Source of the DNA: Bacteroidetes bacterium UKL13-3
GTDB taxonomy: Bacteria; Bacteroidota; Bacteroidia; UKL13-3
DNA length: 64,000 bases
Assembly (NCBI GenBank): GCA_001602415.1
Contig: CP012155.1
Coordinates: forward strand, 744,001-808,000
Reading direction: 5' to 3'
In this document: positions 12,928 through 60,231 of the stretch, in pieces
Layout of the letters: every line of letters starts with the position of its first letter
Position numbering within the stretch: position 1 is the first letter of the stretch
Translations under genes and position numbers: made by a program
Notes under the pieces: model-generated
The model's input: the letters and a program-made list of their open reading frames with translations, nothing else
Told to the model about the DNA's origin: nothing
The model's database searches: none

Positions 12928-12958
12928 TTGTGGTATGTACTAATAGTATATACTTTTG
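12928..12958 (+). promoter_or_regulatory. mazEF promoter with overlapping operator palindrome
   Basis: TACTTTTG at 12951-12958 fits the Bacteroidota -7 consensus TAnnTTTG, with TTG at 12928-12930 about 20 bases upstream. A 21-base palindrome at 12933-12953, GTATGTACTA-A-TAGTATATAC (one mismatched pair), covers the spacer and the first bases of the -7 element. It sits 13 bases before the antitoxin ATG. This is the expected position for autorepression by the antitoxin. Confidence 0.55.
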
Positions 12959-12965
12959 TTCCATT

Positions 12966-13196
12966 ATGAAAACATTATCATTAAAATTAGATGACGACAT
13001 CTTTGAAGAGGCAGAAGATATTAGGTCTAAGCTTCATTTGGCAAGAAATAGGTATATCAATGAGGCCGTTAGTATCTACAATCGTGTAAACAAGAAGCGA
13101 TTGTTAAAAAAACAACTCGCAAAGGAGTCTTTGCTTACCAGTAAAGACTCTTTAGAAATTTTGCACGAATTTGAAAAGTTAGTGGATGAAAATTAA
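12966..13196 (+). CDS. antitoxin of a MazEF-like pair (ribbon-helix-helix type)
   Basis: A 76-residue protein that starts MKTLSLKLDDDIFEEAEDI, the pattern of a ribbon-helix-helix DNA-binding antitoxin with an N-terminal beta strand. The remaining residues are charged and helical and would bind the toxin. The ATG at 12966 is preferred to an in-frame upstream GTG at 12930, because the latter would place the operator inside the coding region. It overlaps the toxin gene by 11 bases, the classic coupled arrangement. The palindrome just upstream is a likely operator. Confidence 0.8.
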   Translation: MKTLSLKLDDDIFEEAEDIRSKLHLARNRYINEAVSIYNRVNKKRLLKKQLAKESLLTSKDSLEILHEFEKLVDEN

Positions 13197-13521
13197 CCAG
13201 TATGATATTTGGCTTGCAGATCTTAATCCAAGTAGGGGCACAGAACCCGGAAAGACAAGACCTGTAGTTATTGTTCAAACAGATTTGTTAAATGAAACTC
13301 ATTTATCTACTTTAATTTGCCCGATTACAACAAATGTTCAGGCAGAAATTGAGCTTTTGCGTGTTCATTTGAAAAAGAATCAACTCGATAAATTGAGCGA
13401 TGTTTTGGTTGACCAAATACGTGCCATCGACAACAAAAGACTTATTTCACGACTCGGGCAATTAACCAAGGAACAACAAGCAAAACTTCGAAACAATCTT
13501 AGAATAGTTCTCGATATATAG
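13186..13521 (+). CDS. mazF: MazF/PemK-family mRNA interferase toxin
   Basis: A 111-residue protein. Family hallmarks are YDIWLADLNPSRGTEPGKTRPVVIVQ at the N-terminus (with the catalytic Arg), LICPITTN in the middle, and VLVDQIRAIDNKRL towards the end. Such toxins cleave mRNA at short sequence motifs and are neutralised by the upstream antitoxin. The pair is on the plus strand between minus-strand aroC and aroA, which suggests insertion into an older aro gene group. Confidence 0.93.
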   Translation: MKINQYDIWLADLNPSRGTEPGKTRPVVIVQTDLLNETHLSTLICPITTNVQAEIELLRVHLKKNQLDKLSDVLVDQIRAIDNKRLISRLGQLTKEQQAKLRNNLRIVLDI

Positions 13522-13609: not shown

Positions 13610-15034
13610 TCATTGGATAACAAACCCAACCGATTTTAAATCTTCCCAAAAATGCGGATAGGATTTTTCAACCACTTCAGGATGTTCAATCGTAATCGAT
13701 TCTGTTATCAAAGCCAACGGAGCAAATGCCATTGCCATACGGTGATCGGAATAAGTGGAGATGTGAGATGTGAGATTTCGGATTTGAGATTTCGGATTTG
13801 AGATTTCGGATTTGAGATGTTGGATGTTGGAGGATGGATTTTGGAGTTCCTCTTTCTGTGGACTGCCGACTGCAAACCGTGGACTCTTCCTCACTTCAAG
13901 TTCATCATTTGTTATGGTAACATCAAATCCGAGTTTGGTCAACTCTAGTTGAAGGGCTTCCAATCGGTCACTTTCTTTTATGCGTAAGTTTTGCAATCCG
14001 CTTAGGGTTATTGGGGTGTTTAGTGCAGCAGCGGTAACGGCTATAGTTGGAGTTAAATCAGGAAAGGATTTGAGATTTACAATTTGAGATTTGAGATTTT
14101 GGATTTCGGGATTTTTTCGAATTTCGTGATTCGAATTTCGTGCTTCTTTCGTTAACCGAATCCCGTTTGGTTCTTCGGTGGTCAACACATCAAAACGTTC
14201 CATATACTCAGCTATCACAGCATCACCTTGCAAACTATCTAACGATAAATCTTCGAGCAGGATATTGCACTCTTTGCTTAAGGCTGCCATTTCATACCAG
14301 TAGCTCGCGGCACTCCAATCGGACTCAATAAAAAGATGTGAGTCCCGATAGCTATCGGGATGAGACTTTGGAGTTGAGATTTTTTTCGAATTTCGAATTT
14401 CGAATTTTTGTATTTCCCTGGGTATTTCAATACTCAAACCATTCTCGTTATTTAGCTGAACGCTCCACCCAAATCTCTCCATCAATTGGGCTGTCATTTC
14501 AATATACGGAAAAGACGTAACTCTTCCTATAAGTTTTATGGTTAATCCATTTTCACACAAGGGAGCAATCATCATCAACGCACTTACATACTGGCTGCTG
14601 GTTGATGCAGCAATAGAAACTGTTCCTCCGGTTAGTTTTTTTCCATTGATGCGAAGAGGAGGGAAGCCTTCCTTTTCGGTATAGGTAATATCGGCACCCA
14701 GTTGTTTAAGCACATCAACCAACTCTTTGATGGGGCGTTGTTTCATGCGTTCATCGCACAAAAGCGTAACGGATGTATAAGGTGTTGCTGCAAAATAGGC
14801 CGTCAGAAAACGCATGCATGTTCCGGCATTTTTAAGATGAATAACACCTTGGTGTTGCTTCAATGCTTGTTGCATTAACACAGTATCATCAGCAGTTGAA
14901 ATATTGTTTAATGTAAGTGACGCATTGCTTATCTGTTGTAGAATTAATGCACGGTTGCTAATGCTTTTGGAGCTGGGTAGTTTAATGTTTCCGGTAAGAA
15001 TGGAAGTAGGGTGTGAAAGAGTTACTGCGGTCAT
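13610..15034 (-). CDS. aroA: EPSP synthase with three in-frame repeat-derived insertions
   Basis: This enzyme joins shikimate-3-phosphate and phosphoenolpyruvate. Core motifs are intact: GNIKLPSSKSISNRALIL, LKNAGTCMRFLTAYFA, CDERMKQRPIKEL, STSSQYVSALMM, ESDWSAASYW, FPDLTPTIAVTAAAL, LRIKESDRLEAL and YSDHRMAMAFAPLAL. From the ATG at 15034, which overlaps the aroB stop as ATGA, it is 474 residues against about 400-430 usually. The excess lies in three places between conserved motifs: about residues 208-234 (contains PDSYRDS, the translation of a perfect 18-bp palindrome), 295-323 (NPEIQNLKSQIVNLKS) and 376-428 (NIQHLKSEISNPKSQIRNL). Their DNA is the same GATTTGAGATTT-like low-complexity sequence found between genes. 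The enzyme is probably still active because all insertions fall in loops. Confidence 0.93.
   Translation of the reverse strand: MTAVTLSHPTSILTGNIKLPSSKSISNRALILQQISNASLTLNNISTADDTVLMQQALKQHQGVIHLKNAGTCMRFLTAYFAATPYTSVTLLCDERMKQRPIKELVDVLKQLGADITYTEKEGFPPLRINGKKLTGGTVSIAASTSSQYVSALMMIAPLCENGLTIKLIGRVTSFPYIEMTAQLMERFGWSVQLNNENGLSIEIPREIQKFEIRNSKKISTPKSHPDSYRDSHLFIESDWSAASYWYEMAALSKECNILLEDLSLDSLQGDAVIAEYMERFDVLTTEEPNGIRLTKEARNSNHEIRKNPEIQNLKSQIVNLKSFPDLTPTIAVTAAALNTPITLSGLQNLRIKESDRLEALQLELTKLGFDVTITNDELEVRKSPRFAVGSPQKEELQNPSSNIQHLKSEISNPKSQIRNLTSHISTYSDHRMAMAFAPLALITESITIEHPEVVEKSYPHFWEDLKSVGFVIQ
14343..14360. repeat. perfect 18-bp palindrome inside aroA
   Basis: TCCCGATAGCTATCGGGA reads the same on both strands. 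It lies in frame within aroA, in a segment flanked by AATTTCGAATTTCGAA-type repeats and GAGATTT runs, and is translated as PDSYRDS on the minus strand. Confidence 0.9.
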
Positions 15035-18426: not shown

Positions 18427-18910
18427 TGAGTGATTGGGTAAATGGGTGATTGAGTAAATGAGTAAATGGGTGATTGAGTAAATGAGTAAATGAGTAAATG
18501 GGTAAATGGGTAAATGAGTAAATGAGTAAATGAGTAAATGAGTAAATGAGTAAATGAGTAAATGAGTAAATGAGTAAATGAGTAAATGAGTAAATGAGTA
18601 AATGAGTAAATGAGTAAATGAGTAAATGAGTAAATGAGTAAATGAGTAAATGAGTAAATGAGTGAATGAGTGAATGAGTGAATGAGTGAATGAGTAAATG
18701 AGTAAATGAGTAAATGAGTAAATGAGTAAATGAGTAAATGAGTAAATGAGTAAATGAGTAAATGAGTAAATGAGTAAATGAGTGAATGAGTGAATGAGTG
18801 AATGAGTAAATGAGTAAATGAGTAAATGAGTAAATGAGTAAATGAGTAAATGAGTAAATGAGTAAATGAGTAAATGAGTGAATGAGTGAATGAGTAAATG
18901 GTTGAATGAG
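18427..18910. repeat. octanucleotide tandem repeat between parA and parB
   Basis: About 60 copies of an 8-base unit (TGAGTAAA in phase; variants GGGTAAAT, GAGTGAAT, TGATTGAG) fill 484 bases. On the plus strand each perfect unit holds ATG-AGT-AAA-TGA, with the next ATG overlapping the TGA by four bases. On the minus strand all three frames stay open through the array and read the same 8-residue period (HLLIYSFT). Variant units are grouped: GAGTGAAT blocks at about 18661-18690, 18781-18805 and 18877-18893. The minus frames have no plausible start context or conserved ends, so they are not called as genes. Confidence 0.95.
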
Positions 18911-41000: not shown

Positions 41001-41060
41001 GGCGCAATTTAAGAGATTTGGTTGATTAAGTGATTAGGTTGATTGAGTTGAATCAGGGAA

Positions 41061-41645
41061 ATGTGCAGATGTGAGAATGTGAAGATTTGCAGATGGAGGA
41101 TTATTTATTGAGTGGAATACCATCTTCAGTCAGCAAGGCGCTGCCTGAGCTCCACGAAGTGGAAAGGTCGAAGGCAGCTGTGCGTTGGAGCGTATAGATG
41201 AGTGATTAGTTAAATGTGCAGATGTGAGAATGTGAAGATTTGCAGATGGAGGATTATTTATTGAGTGGAATACCATCTTCAGTCAGCAAGGCGCTGCCTG
41301 AGCTCCACGAAGTGGAAAGGTCGAAGGCAGCTGTGCGTTGGAGCGTATAGATGAGTGATTAGTTAAATGTGCAGATGTGAGAATGTGAAGATTTGCAGAT
41401 GGAGGATTAAATAATGAGTGGAATACGATCTTCAGTCAGCAAGGCGCTGCCTGAGCTCCACGAAGTGGAAAGGTCGAAGGCAGCTGTGCGTTGGAGCGTA
41501 TAGATGAGTGATTAGTTAAATGTGCAGATGTGAGAATGTGAAGATTTGCAGATGGAGGATTATATAATGAGTGGAATACGATCTTCAGTCAGCAAGGCGC
41601 TGCCTGAGCTCCACGAAGTGGAAAGGTCGAAGGCAGCTGTGCGTG
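41061..41645. repeat. 153-bp tandem repeat, about 3.8 copies, each with a hairpin
   Basis: Copies begin at 41061, 41214, 41367 and 41520 (period exactly 153), the last cut short at about 41645. They are nearly identical; small changes include ACCATC to ACGATC after GAGTGGAAT. Each contains GCTGCCT and AGGCAGC enclosing TCCAC-GAA-GTGGA, a two-level hairpin (first copy 41140-41178). No gene is seen in 41001-41735. The preceding bases (41020-41060) are GATTAAGTGATTAGG-type low complexity. Confidence 0.93.
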
Positions 41646-48043: not shown

Positions 48044-49147
48044 TTATTGAACAAATAATTTTTTAACAACAACTGCTTCTCCTGATTGTATTTTTACAAA
48101 GTAAATACCTGATTTAAGAATGCTTACTGGCAACGTATTAGATGTTTGCGATGCAGTAAAAACAGCTTCTGTTTTACCTGTAACTCCAATAATGCTAATT
48201 ACATCTTTGTGCGGTATTAATCCAACTAGAACCGCTTCCTCTTTTGCAGGATTTGGATACAAATTAATGGCATCTAATCTTGTTAACTCTTCTACGCTGG
48301 TTATAACACTGTTTCTGATAAAAATATTACGAGTAGATTCTGAATAACGAACTATGCCTTTCGACTGGGCTTTTACCCGCCAAATTCCTGCAAACAATAC
48401 ACCTGAAGTAATACCCCTTTGATTAGCCAATTGTAATATAAGCTTTTTGGGTAATTTAATCCCAGGGCTCATACCTGAAGGAAGGTCAAAACGCGGGTTA
48501 CTAAAATCACCGCCAACGGTATCCAATACAAATGTATAAGTAGTTGTATCAACGCCATTTGGGTGCTTACTAGGAGTCCAACTCAATAAAACGGAATCAT
48601 TTAAATTTGTGCTAGTAAGCAAAATGGTATCATTCTGCAACGGAGTTAATAAGTTAAAGGGACTTAACGTTATAACACTGTTTCTGATAAAAATTTTACG
48701 AGTAGATTCTGAATAACGAACTATGCCTTTCGACTGGGCTTTTACCCGCCAAATTCCTGCAAACAATACACCTGAAGTAATACCCCTTTGATTAGCCAAT
48801 TGTAATATAAACTTTTTGGGTAATTTAATCCCAGGGCTCATACCTGAAGGAAGGTCAAAACGCGGGTTACTAAAATCACCGCCAACGGTATCCAATACAA
48901 ATGTATAAGTAGTTGTATCAACGCCATTTGAGTTCTTACTAGGATCCCAACTCAATAAAACGGAATCATTTAAATTTGTGCTAGTAAGCAAAATGGTATC
49001 ATTCTGCAACGGAGTTAATAAGTTAAAGGGACTTAACGTTTGGCCATAAAGATTTGATAATGAAATTAATGTACTTAGGAATAGAAGGGTTAAGACCTTG
49101 TTTAAGTTGTTTGGTAATCTGCTGATTGTTGTAAATGTTTTTTTCAT
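48044..49147 (-). CDS. secreted protein with two near-identical domains and T9SS tail
   Basis: A 367-residue protein with a signal peptide ending near SNLYGQ. Two copies of a 123-residue Ig/fibronectin-like domain follow (LSPFNLLTPLQNDTILLTS, then TYTFVLDTVGGDFSNPRFDL and GIWRVKAQSKGIVRYSEST). They differ at only about half a dozen residues. A T9SS type A sorting domain follows (LYPNPAKEEAVLVGL, SGIYFVKIQ, VVVKKLFVQ). It is probably displayed on the surface or released. The domain resembles SusE/F-type Ig modules but no ligand can be named. Confidence 0.8.
   Translation of the reverse strand: MKKTFTTISRLPNNLNKVLTLLFLSTLISLSNLYGQTLSPFNLLTPLQNDTILLTSTNLNDSVLLSWDPSKNSNGVDTTTYTFVLDTVGGDFSNPRFDLPSGMSPGIKLPKKFILQLANQRGITSGVLFAGIWRVKAQSKGIVRYSESTRKIFIRNSVITLSPFNLLTPLQNDTILLTSTNLNDSVLLSWTPSKHPNGVDTTTYTFVLDTVGGDFSNPRFDLPSGMSPGIKLPKKLILQLANQRGITSGVLFAGIWRVKAQSKGIVRYSESTRNIFIRNSVITSVEELTRLDAINLYPNPAKEEAVLVGLIPHKDVISIIGVTGKTEAVFTASQTSNTLPVSILKSGIYFVKIQSGEAVVVKKLFVQ
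48300..49037. repeat. 369-bp direct duplication within the T9SS gene
   Basis: Units 48300-48668 and 48669-49037 are almost identical in DNA (a few substitutions, for example GGGTGCTTACTAGGAGT against GAGTTCTTACTAGGATC). The unit is exactly 123 codons, so the reading frame is kept. The near-identity at silent positions shows that the duplication is recent or homogenised. Confidence 0.92.
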
Positions 49148-58880: not shown

Positions 58881-58941
58881 GGATAATTTTTTCTCGTTTA
58901 AATGTTGGAATTCGTAATTCTCAATTCGTAATTCTCAATTA

Positions 58942-60231
58942 TTAATAGTGACATTTACCACACTCAAGTCCACCAACGTTTGCAACTGTGGCGTATGACT
59001 TACCTTGAGCTTTTAAATCGTCATGCAATTTTTGGTAGTAGTCGTTGTTTGCAACATCCACTTTCGCTTCGCGGTGACAATTAATACACCAGCCCATTTG
59101 CAATGATGATTGTTGCGAAACTACTTTCATTGTTTCAATCGGACCGTGACATGCTTGACACTCAACTTTACCAACTTTTACGTGTTGTGCGTGGTTGAAG
59201 TAAGCCAAATCAGGTAAGTTGTGAATGCGTACCCATTTGATTGGGGTTTGTGGTTTGGTTGGGTCGTAAGCTTTTTTATCGGCATCCCATCCAACAGCAT
59301 TATATATTTTTTGAATTTCTGGAGATACCTTTCCATCGTAATTTTTACTTGCAGTAACATGCATATGGCAGTTCATACAAGTACTTGCAGAAGGAATGGT
59401 AGCTTGTTTACTCTTATCCGCACCACTGTGACAATACAAGCAGTTTATCTTGTATTTACCAGCATGTAACTCATGCGAGTAGTTGATTGGTTGTGTTGGA
59501 GCATATCCTTGTTGCACACCTACTTCTTTATTTCCATAATCAAACCCTACCAAGCCAGCAACAACTGTAAAAGCTAGGATTACAACGATGGTACCCACAA
59601 CAGGGTGTTTTTTGAATAATTTATAGCGAACAGAAGTTGGTCTTTCTTTCCATGATATTGTTTGTTCAACTTCCTCAGCAACAGCTTCAGGGAATTTTTG
59701 CGCATACAACTGATCAACAACTTTGCGGATGCTGAACAAAATAAATACAATCACAAATAAGATGATTGCTATGATGCTTAATCCCCAAAATGTTGTTGAA
59801 TTGTAGAAACCATCTTGTGCGGTTTGTGCAGTTCCTGTTGTGGCATCGCCACCGGCAACATTAGCTATTGCAGCAGCAGCGGGCTTTTCGCTCTCTGCTT
59901 TGATGTATTCCACTATTGAAGCTAACTGGCCGTCCGAAAGATTTTCGAATGAAGTCATGATCGACTCGTTGTTTTCTTTGTAAAGAGCAACGGCAGTTGC
60001 ATCTCCGCTTTTGATTAGCGCTTGAGAATTCTTAATCCACTTGATAAGCCAAGTAGCTTCTCTTCGTTTGTGAACGTCTTTCAAGGCAGGACCAACAACT
60101 TTTTCATTGATGGCATGACATGAAGTACAGTTTGCTGTGAATAATTTTTCGCCCTCTGCAACGTCTGCAATAGCAAAACGTGTTGAGAATGAAAGAAGAA
60201 GAAACAGTGAGGTAAACTTTAATAATCTCAT
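58942..60231 (-). CDS. actA: alternative complex III subunit ActA, multihaem cytochrome with fused N-terminal monohaem domain
   Basis: A 429-residue protein with a signal peptide (LKFTSLFLLLSFSTRFAIADV). Six CxxCH haem motifs are visible: CTSCH in an N-terminal monohaem domain (residues about 25-110), then CLYCH, CMNCH, CQACH, CINCH and CGKCH in the C-terminal pentahaem part. Between them is a membrane helix (FWGLSIIAIILFVIVFILFSI) and a second one (KHPVVGTIVVILAFTVVAGLVGF). It accepts electrons from ActB and passes them to the oxidase. It is the first gene of the operon, with a promoter 80 bases upstream. Confidence 0.94.
   Translation of the reverse strand: MRLLKFTSLFLLLSFSTRFAIADVAEGEKLFTANCTSCHAINEKVVGPALKDVHKRREATWLIKWIKNSQALIKSGDATAVALYKENNESIMTSFENLSDGQLASIVEYIKAESEKPAAAAIANVAGGDATTGTAQTAQDGFYNSTTFWGLSIIAIILFVIVFILFSIRKVVDQLYAQKFPEAVAEEVEQTISWKERPTSVRYKLFKKHPVVGTIVVILAFTVVAGLVGFDYGNKEVGVQQGYAPTQPINYSHELHAGKYKINCLYCHSGADKSKQATIPSASTCMNCHMHVTASKNYDGKVSPEIQKIYNAVGWDADKKAYDPTKPQTPIKWVRIHNLPDLAYFNHAQHVKVGKVECQACHGPIETMKVVSQQSSLQMGWCINCHREAKVDVANNDYYQKLHDDLKAQGKSYATVANVGGLECGKCHY

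Follow-up and report, generated by a model that had tools for sequence, protein, structure and literature searches.

Intergenic-type repeat DNA translated within three loops of a Bacteroidota EPSP synthase

Translated repeat insertions have been described for the obligate intracellular Rickettsia and Wolbachia. The Rickettsia palindromic elements (RPE) are 105-146 bp long, end in 12-bp terminal inverted repeats and each constitute an open frame (Ogata 2000, 2002, as related in PMC2229807); according to the same account they also enter RNase P RNA and are tolerated by the enzyme, as tested for guanylate kinase (PMC2229807). REPs within genes have been reported in frame, in uvrA among other repair genes (PMC3733652). 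Dispersed heptamer repeats form a further group, with the cyanobacterial STRR and examples from some Bacteroidetes (PMC4679880) as well as GGGAATC arrays (PMC4692102); TAACTGA arrays can be read through on one strand (LSVISYQ), whereas stops interrupt the opposite strand (PMC4679880).

The locus considered here is the single-copy aroA gene of a Bacteroidota genome, encoding the essential enzyme EPSP synthase and located in a stretch of DNA of 64,000 nucleotides (the window, G000:C1:744001-808000). Dispersed intergenic repeats of the lineage have probably entered this gene at three loops between β-strands and are now translated. The repeats are of two kinds: heptamer arrays, which on the coding strand are mainly (CAAATCT)n and (CGAAATT)n, and an 18-bp palindrome, here called P. 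Translated repeat insertions would thereby be known beyond Rickettsia and Wolbachia, in Bacteroidota whose genomes measure 2-4 Mb, and in a textbook enzyme.

As with RPE, palindromic repeats are dispersed here in intergenic DNA, in frame in conserved protein genes and in RNase P RNA. Unlike RPE, P measures 18 bp, contributes about six residues, lies within heptamer arrays and has a Bacteroidota host; heptamers or unrelated DNA flank it, differently from copy to copy, in place of the remainder of a long stem-loop of about 105-146 bp. Set against the description of RPE, the parallel that the earlier note had drawn lies in translated and tolerated repeat insertions and does not extend to element size. 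The protein-coding palindromic repeats of Wolbachia (Ogata 2005, as related in PMC2229807) appear, likewise by description, to follow the same principle of repeat DNA translated in housekeeping proteins, in a different host group. Known heptamer repeats share with the present ones the dispersed 7-bp tandem arrays, and one known set lies inside purC near its end; they differ in that the unit is another one here and that several blocks lie within enzyme cores, combined with a palindrome.

The aroA gene and its three extra segments

aroA is a single uninterrupted reading frame (15034 to 13613 plus stop; Table 1), and the genome yields one full-length EPSP synthase match. The gene adjoins aroB, with aroC nearby, beyond a small putative toxin-antitoxin pair; the two small adjacent genes between aroC and aroA (12930-13521, plus strand) have, by eye, a MazEF/PemK-type look. 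The protein contains the EPSP synthase domain and is recognised by Pfam PF00275 (271 bits), by sequence comparison with the PDB and by fold, the closest structures being EPSP synthases. The invariant columns of a 34-sequence alignment include K23, R28, D326, K353, E354, D430-R432 and K457, and among them are residues that act in catalysis in E. coli EPSP synthase. Judged by this alignment, the catalytic residues on both sides of the insertions are intact, in agreement with the earlier note.

Table 1. Positions in the window of aroA, its repeat-derived blocks and related intergenic arrays
Feature	Position	Strand	Description
aroA, EPSP synthase	13610-15034	minus	474 aa; sole full-length copy in genome
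Block 1, aa 205-234, PREIQKFEIRNSKKISTPKSHPDSYRDSHL	14333-14422	minus	CGAAATT heptamers, CAAATCT-like units and palindrome P
Block 2, aa 297-323, EARNSNHEIRKNPEIQNLKSQIVNLKS	14066-14146	minus	CGAAATT-type and CAAATCT heptamers
Block 3, aa 383-424, ends SEISNPKSQIRNLTSH	13763-13888	minus	14-mer array of CAAATCCGAAATCT and other low-complexity DNA
Palindrome P, TCCCGATAGCTATCGGGA	14343-14360	no strand	perfect, 18 bp; translated PDSYRD
Intergenic GATTTGA-type array	854-882	no strand	DNA of the same kind as blocks 2 and 3
Intergenic array of 14-mer AATTCGTAATTCTC	58909-58946	no strand	related to the aroA unit, not identical with it

The length of AroA was compared with that of 108 distant Bacteroidota AroA proteins from a scan of a contig collection, which returned no close relative (nearest about 50-55% identical); relatives in named genomes belong to Bacteroidota almost without exception, one metagenome bin being labelled Rhizobium. 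The 474 residues of AroA exceed the median of 412 (range 391-443) by about 62, an excess confined to three loops with lengths of 49, 44 and 58 as opposed to medians of 27, 32 and 28, so that the unusual length first noticed from the sequence holds. The DNA of the three blocks has a period-7 self-identity of 0.44, 0.60 and 0.64, compared with 0.25 for the remainder of aroA, and Tandem Repeats Finder reports 7/14-bp arrays in all three. Every block connects two β-strands neighbouring in sequence. An AlphaFold2 model scores mostly above 90 in the core and below 50 at residues 210-230, 300-303, 312-314 and 389-412. Owing to the excess length, the periodic DNA, the low-confidence segments and the position between strands, the blocks look like disordered insertions within an otherwise normal EPSP synthase.

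The loops would tolerate extra residues, and therefore the enzyme probably remains active and the insertions would be near-neutral or mildly costly passengers. One could argue from the frame kept by all three blocks, in the only aroA of the genome, that selection retained the new loops for an effect on AroA stability, regulation or protein contacts; this is very improbable, as the segments are predicted to be disordered, each lineage with loop inserts has different ones, and the peptide is also present in unrelated proteins. That the repeats were misassembled, or that aroA is a pseudogene on its way out, is less credible still. AroA is unusually long and assemblers can be misled by repeats, but the 3.24 Mb source genome is a single contig, 99.96% complete; the frame stays open over about 300 bp of inserts with the catalytic residues intact, the gene is the only aroA and sits beside aroB with aroC close, and similar insertions occur in independent genomes and genes.

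None of the 108 relatives shares the three blocks in a protein-level comparison, in support of the earlier note, but a few have other repeat-like stretches in the same loops (G009, locus L036; G004, L046; G011, L035; G020, L299; and L098), and repeat-like sequence is also what the loop-length outliers among the relatives contain. Loops 1 and 2 of L036 hold CAAATCAT and TTCACTCA repeats, loop 3 of L098 holds CACCCTGAGCGGAGTCGAAGGG, and in loop 2 of L046 CTTCGACTTCGCTCAGCCTGAC is combined with ACCAAATT repeats; the REP from the L046 AroA has only two exact occurrences in its genome, and its dispersal is thus weakly shown. In G020, P appears in frame in loop 2, tentatively, as the contig with the second half starts seven bases before P. 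Because several relatives carry other repeats there, these loops are recurrent landing places for different repeats and not the site of one event.

Heptamer repeats and the strand that can be read

The DNA of the blocks recurs outside the gene. In the window, GATTTGAGATTT occurs ten times with at most one mismatch (1.0 expected), eight of these within aroA, and across the genome CAAATCTCAAATCT occurs 118 times with at most two mismatches, compared with 28 for the reversed control. The dispersed 7-bp tandem arrays thus exceed chance, as in STRR-like heptamer repeats, and the view that the inserts consist of intergenic-type repeats is borne out. Its details need correction: the intergenic array near 860 is of the GATTTGA type as claimed, that near 58900 has a related but different unit (AATTCGTAATTCTC), and AATTTCGAATTT, which had been put forward as a dispersed unit, was found in the window scan (at most one mismatch) only inside aroA and in a number not above chance. 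An exact 15-bp CAAATCT search gave matches in only 7 of 58 genomes, and relatives therefore mostly use other units. The window contains further tandem arrays, with 59 copies of TGAGTAAA at 18427-18900, 3.8 copies of a 153-bp unit at 41059-41644 and two copies of a 369-bp unit at 48300-49040.

Since 7 and 3 share no factor, a heptamer array yields one seven-residue peptide in every frame. (CAAATCT)n is translated as SNLKSQI in all three frames without a stop, and its complement has TGA in all three; (CGAAATT)n is open on both strands. Because of these TGA codons, an array persists within a gene only in the open orientation and only if its net length is a multiple of three. The heptamer blocks inside conserved genes (two in aroA, one each in uvrA and metH) are all in the open orientation, a rule which rests on these four clean blocks with a chance probability of about 1 in 16. 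Other strong heptamer sites, classified on 69 segments (287 kb) from among the matches listed, lie mostly between genes or at their ends. In UvrA, heptamers encode about 22 additional residues (LEENTKSEIQNPKTKKSDSTNPNSQISNLN) that are missing from a same-genus copy (best segment 77% identical), in a loop that varies across the family anyway, and in MetH they encode a loop that exceeds the E. coli one by 5 residues. Repeats are translated in UvrA too and, more modestly, in MetH. A simple rule for repeats that enter genes emerges: the heptamer reads alike in all frames, and one strand only is free of stops.

The repeats most probably reach their sites through genome-wide processes whose traces remain mostly in intergenic DNA; inside genes, the survivors would be insertions in the open orientation that keep the frame and lie in tolerant loops. 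A different origin has been proposed for bacterial 7-mers, namely slippage (PMC4679880). By replication slippage, short AT-rich loop codons of aroA would have become heptamers in place, independently of the intergenic arrays, with P alone coming from outside. The blocks are indeed imperfect arrays and other genomes have different units in the same AroA loops, but the CAAATCT unit is present at many other, unlinked sites and greatly exceeds the control, block 3 also contains non-heptamer intergenic-type DNA, and slippage cannot generate P. We regard it as unlikely and prefer the entry of repeats from the dispersed pool.

The palindrome P and its replacement footprint

The perfect 18-bp palindrome reported in one block is present; 0.01 occurrences would be expected in the window even with three mismatches allowed. 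The genome holds 44 copies of P, some in tandem arrays, and none of the reversed control. Among the 97 genomes searched, P was found in 30, with a patchy distribution and up to 26 copies in a relative. P can be read in two of three frames, as PDSYR or PIAIG. The proposal that a short palindromic element had created the new protein segments cannot be upheld, as P accounts for about 6 of the roughly 62 extra residues and the remainder comes mostly from heptamer tandem repeats and other low-complexity DNA. P is an element separate from the heptamers, and its sequence had no match in the literature searched, whether narrowly or more widely.

The footprint of P was determined by seeking, in sampled DNA of the same genome, an uninterrupted copy of the flanks of each site. 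Such an empty copy was obtained for 35 sites, and in 29 of them the best spacing includes 3, 4 or 5 bases (18 of 19 when at most one mismatch is allowed), compared with 11 matches, one of them within 3-5 bases, for a control with the right flank reversed. Thus, compared with the empty copies, P stands in for 3-5 bases. With such a defined footprint in a short palindrome, the way in which P spreads can be put to the test. tRNA genes provide the clearest empty copies: replacement begins at tRNA nucleotide 14 in six tRNA copies and falls within the T-loop in others. Common descent may link some of these sites, as for tRNA-Thr in two genera. The replacements in broken tRNA copies lie in D-loops and T-loops.

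P is scattered through these genomes and would land in other repeats. The copy in aroA seems to stand in for 3 bases of a pre-existing heptamer stretch; the flanks GAG[P]TGAG fit such a replacement in a GATGTGA/GATTTGA stretch (net +15 bp, keeping the frame), the empty match being weak with three mismatches. A target-site duplication was considered, as GAG[P]GAG in heptamers resembles one of 3 bp, and was rejected because the replacement of 3-5 bases at tRNA, REP and other heptamer sites explains all cases.

P and REPs are alike as short dispersed palindromes with tandem clusters that are sometimes in frame in genes, uvrA and others in the case of REPs. Unlike REP/RAYT systems, P has neither tag nor adjoining RAYT-like gene and replaces 3-5 bases: the flanks of P sites contain no constant GTAG or CGTC, and of ten Y1_Tnp matches the RAYT-like ones are never next to P, the match nearest a copy being a partial IS200-type one 2.5 kb away. 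Mobilisation by RAYT was rejected on this ground. Translated palindromes and REPs are thus already known elsewhere, and P fits neither RPE, by its size, nor REP/RAYT, by tag and transposase.

P in RNA genes and other protein genes

P is found in frame beyond aroA. In G033, a Gfo/Idh/MocA oxidoreductase carries it in frame, with 39 residues between template-adjacent residues; a scan of viral contigs for this protein gave distant homologues only, which were left out of account. P is also in frame in a 410-aa frame of tentative identity in the relatives. The RNase P RNA gene of the present genome (RF00010, 250 bits; L071:1075-1546, G000:C1 about 1800974-1801445) contains P at the tip of helix P3. 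A long additional stem of the same gene contains CTTCGGCTTCGCTCAGC, which is REP-like.

P may be a mobile element of Bacteroidota, an 18-bp palindrome that moves in a hitherto undescribed way of its own; it would be exchanged for 3-5 bases, often in tRNA-like hairpin loops and sometimes with small GIY-YIG nuclease genes beside tRNAs, and would also enter RNase P RNA as well as protein genes, in which it is translated. We put this forward tentatively, at somewhat less than even likelihood.

Broken tRNA copies that carry P adjoin intact tRNA genes in several genera (L271, L318, L267, L263, L313) and in the present genome (L066, L074, L075). At L319 (G000:C1:170300-175800), an intact tRNA-Asn gene is flanked on one side by about eight 410-bp units, each combining the tRNA 3' half, with P in its T-arm, with a small ORF of about 129 aa for a GIY-YIG nuclease, and on the opposite side by eleven 80-bp units with the tRNA 5' half bearing P in the D-loop. 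One broken tRNA-Ala copy contains, besides P, a second and similarly designed palindrome, TCCCGACAGGCATGTCGGGA (L313:1563-1580), which suggests a family of the form TCCCGA...TCGGGA.
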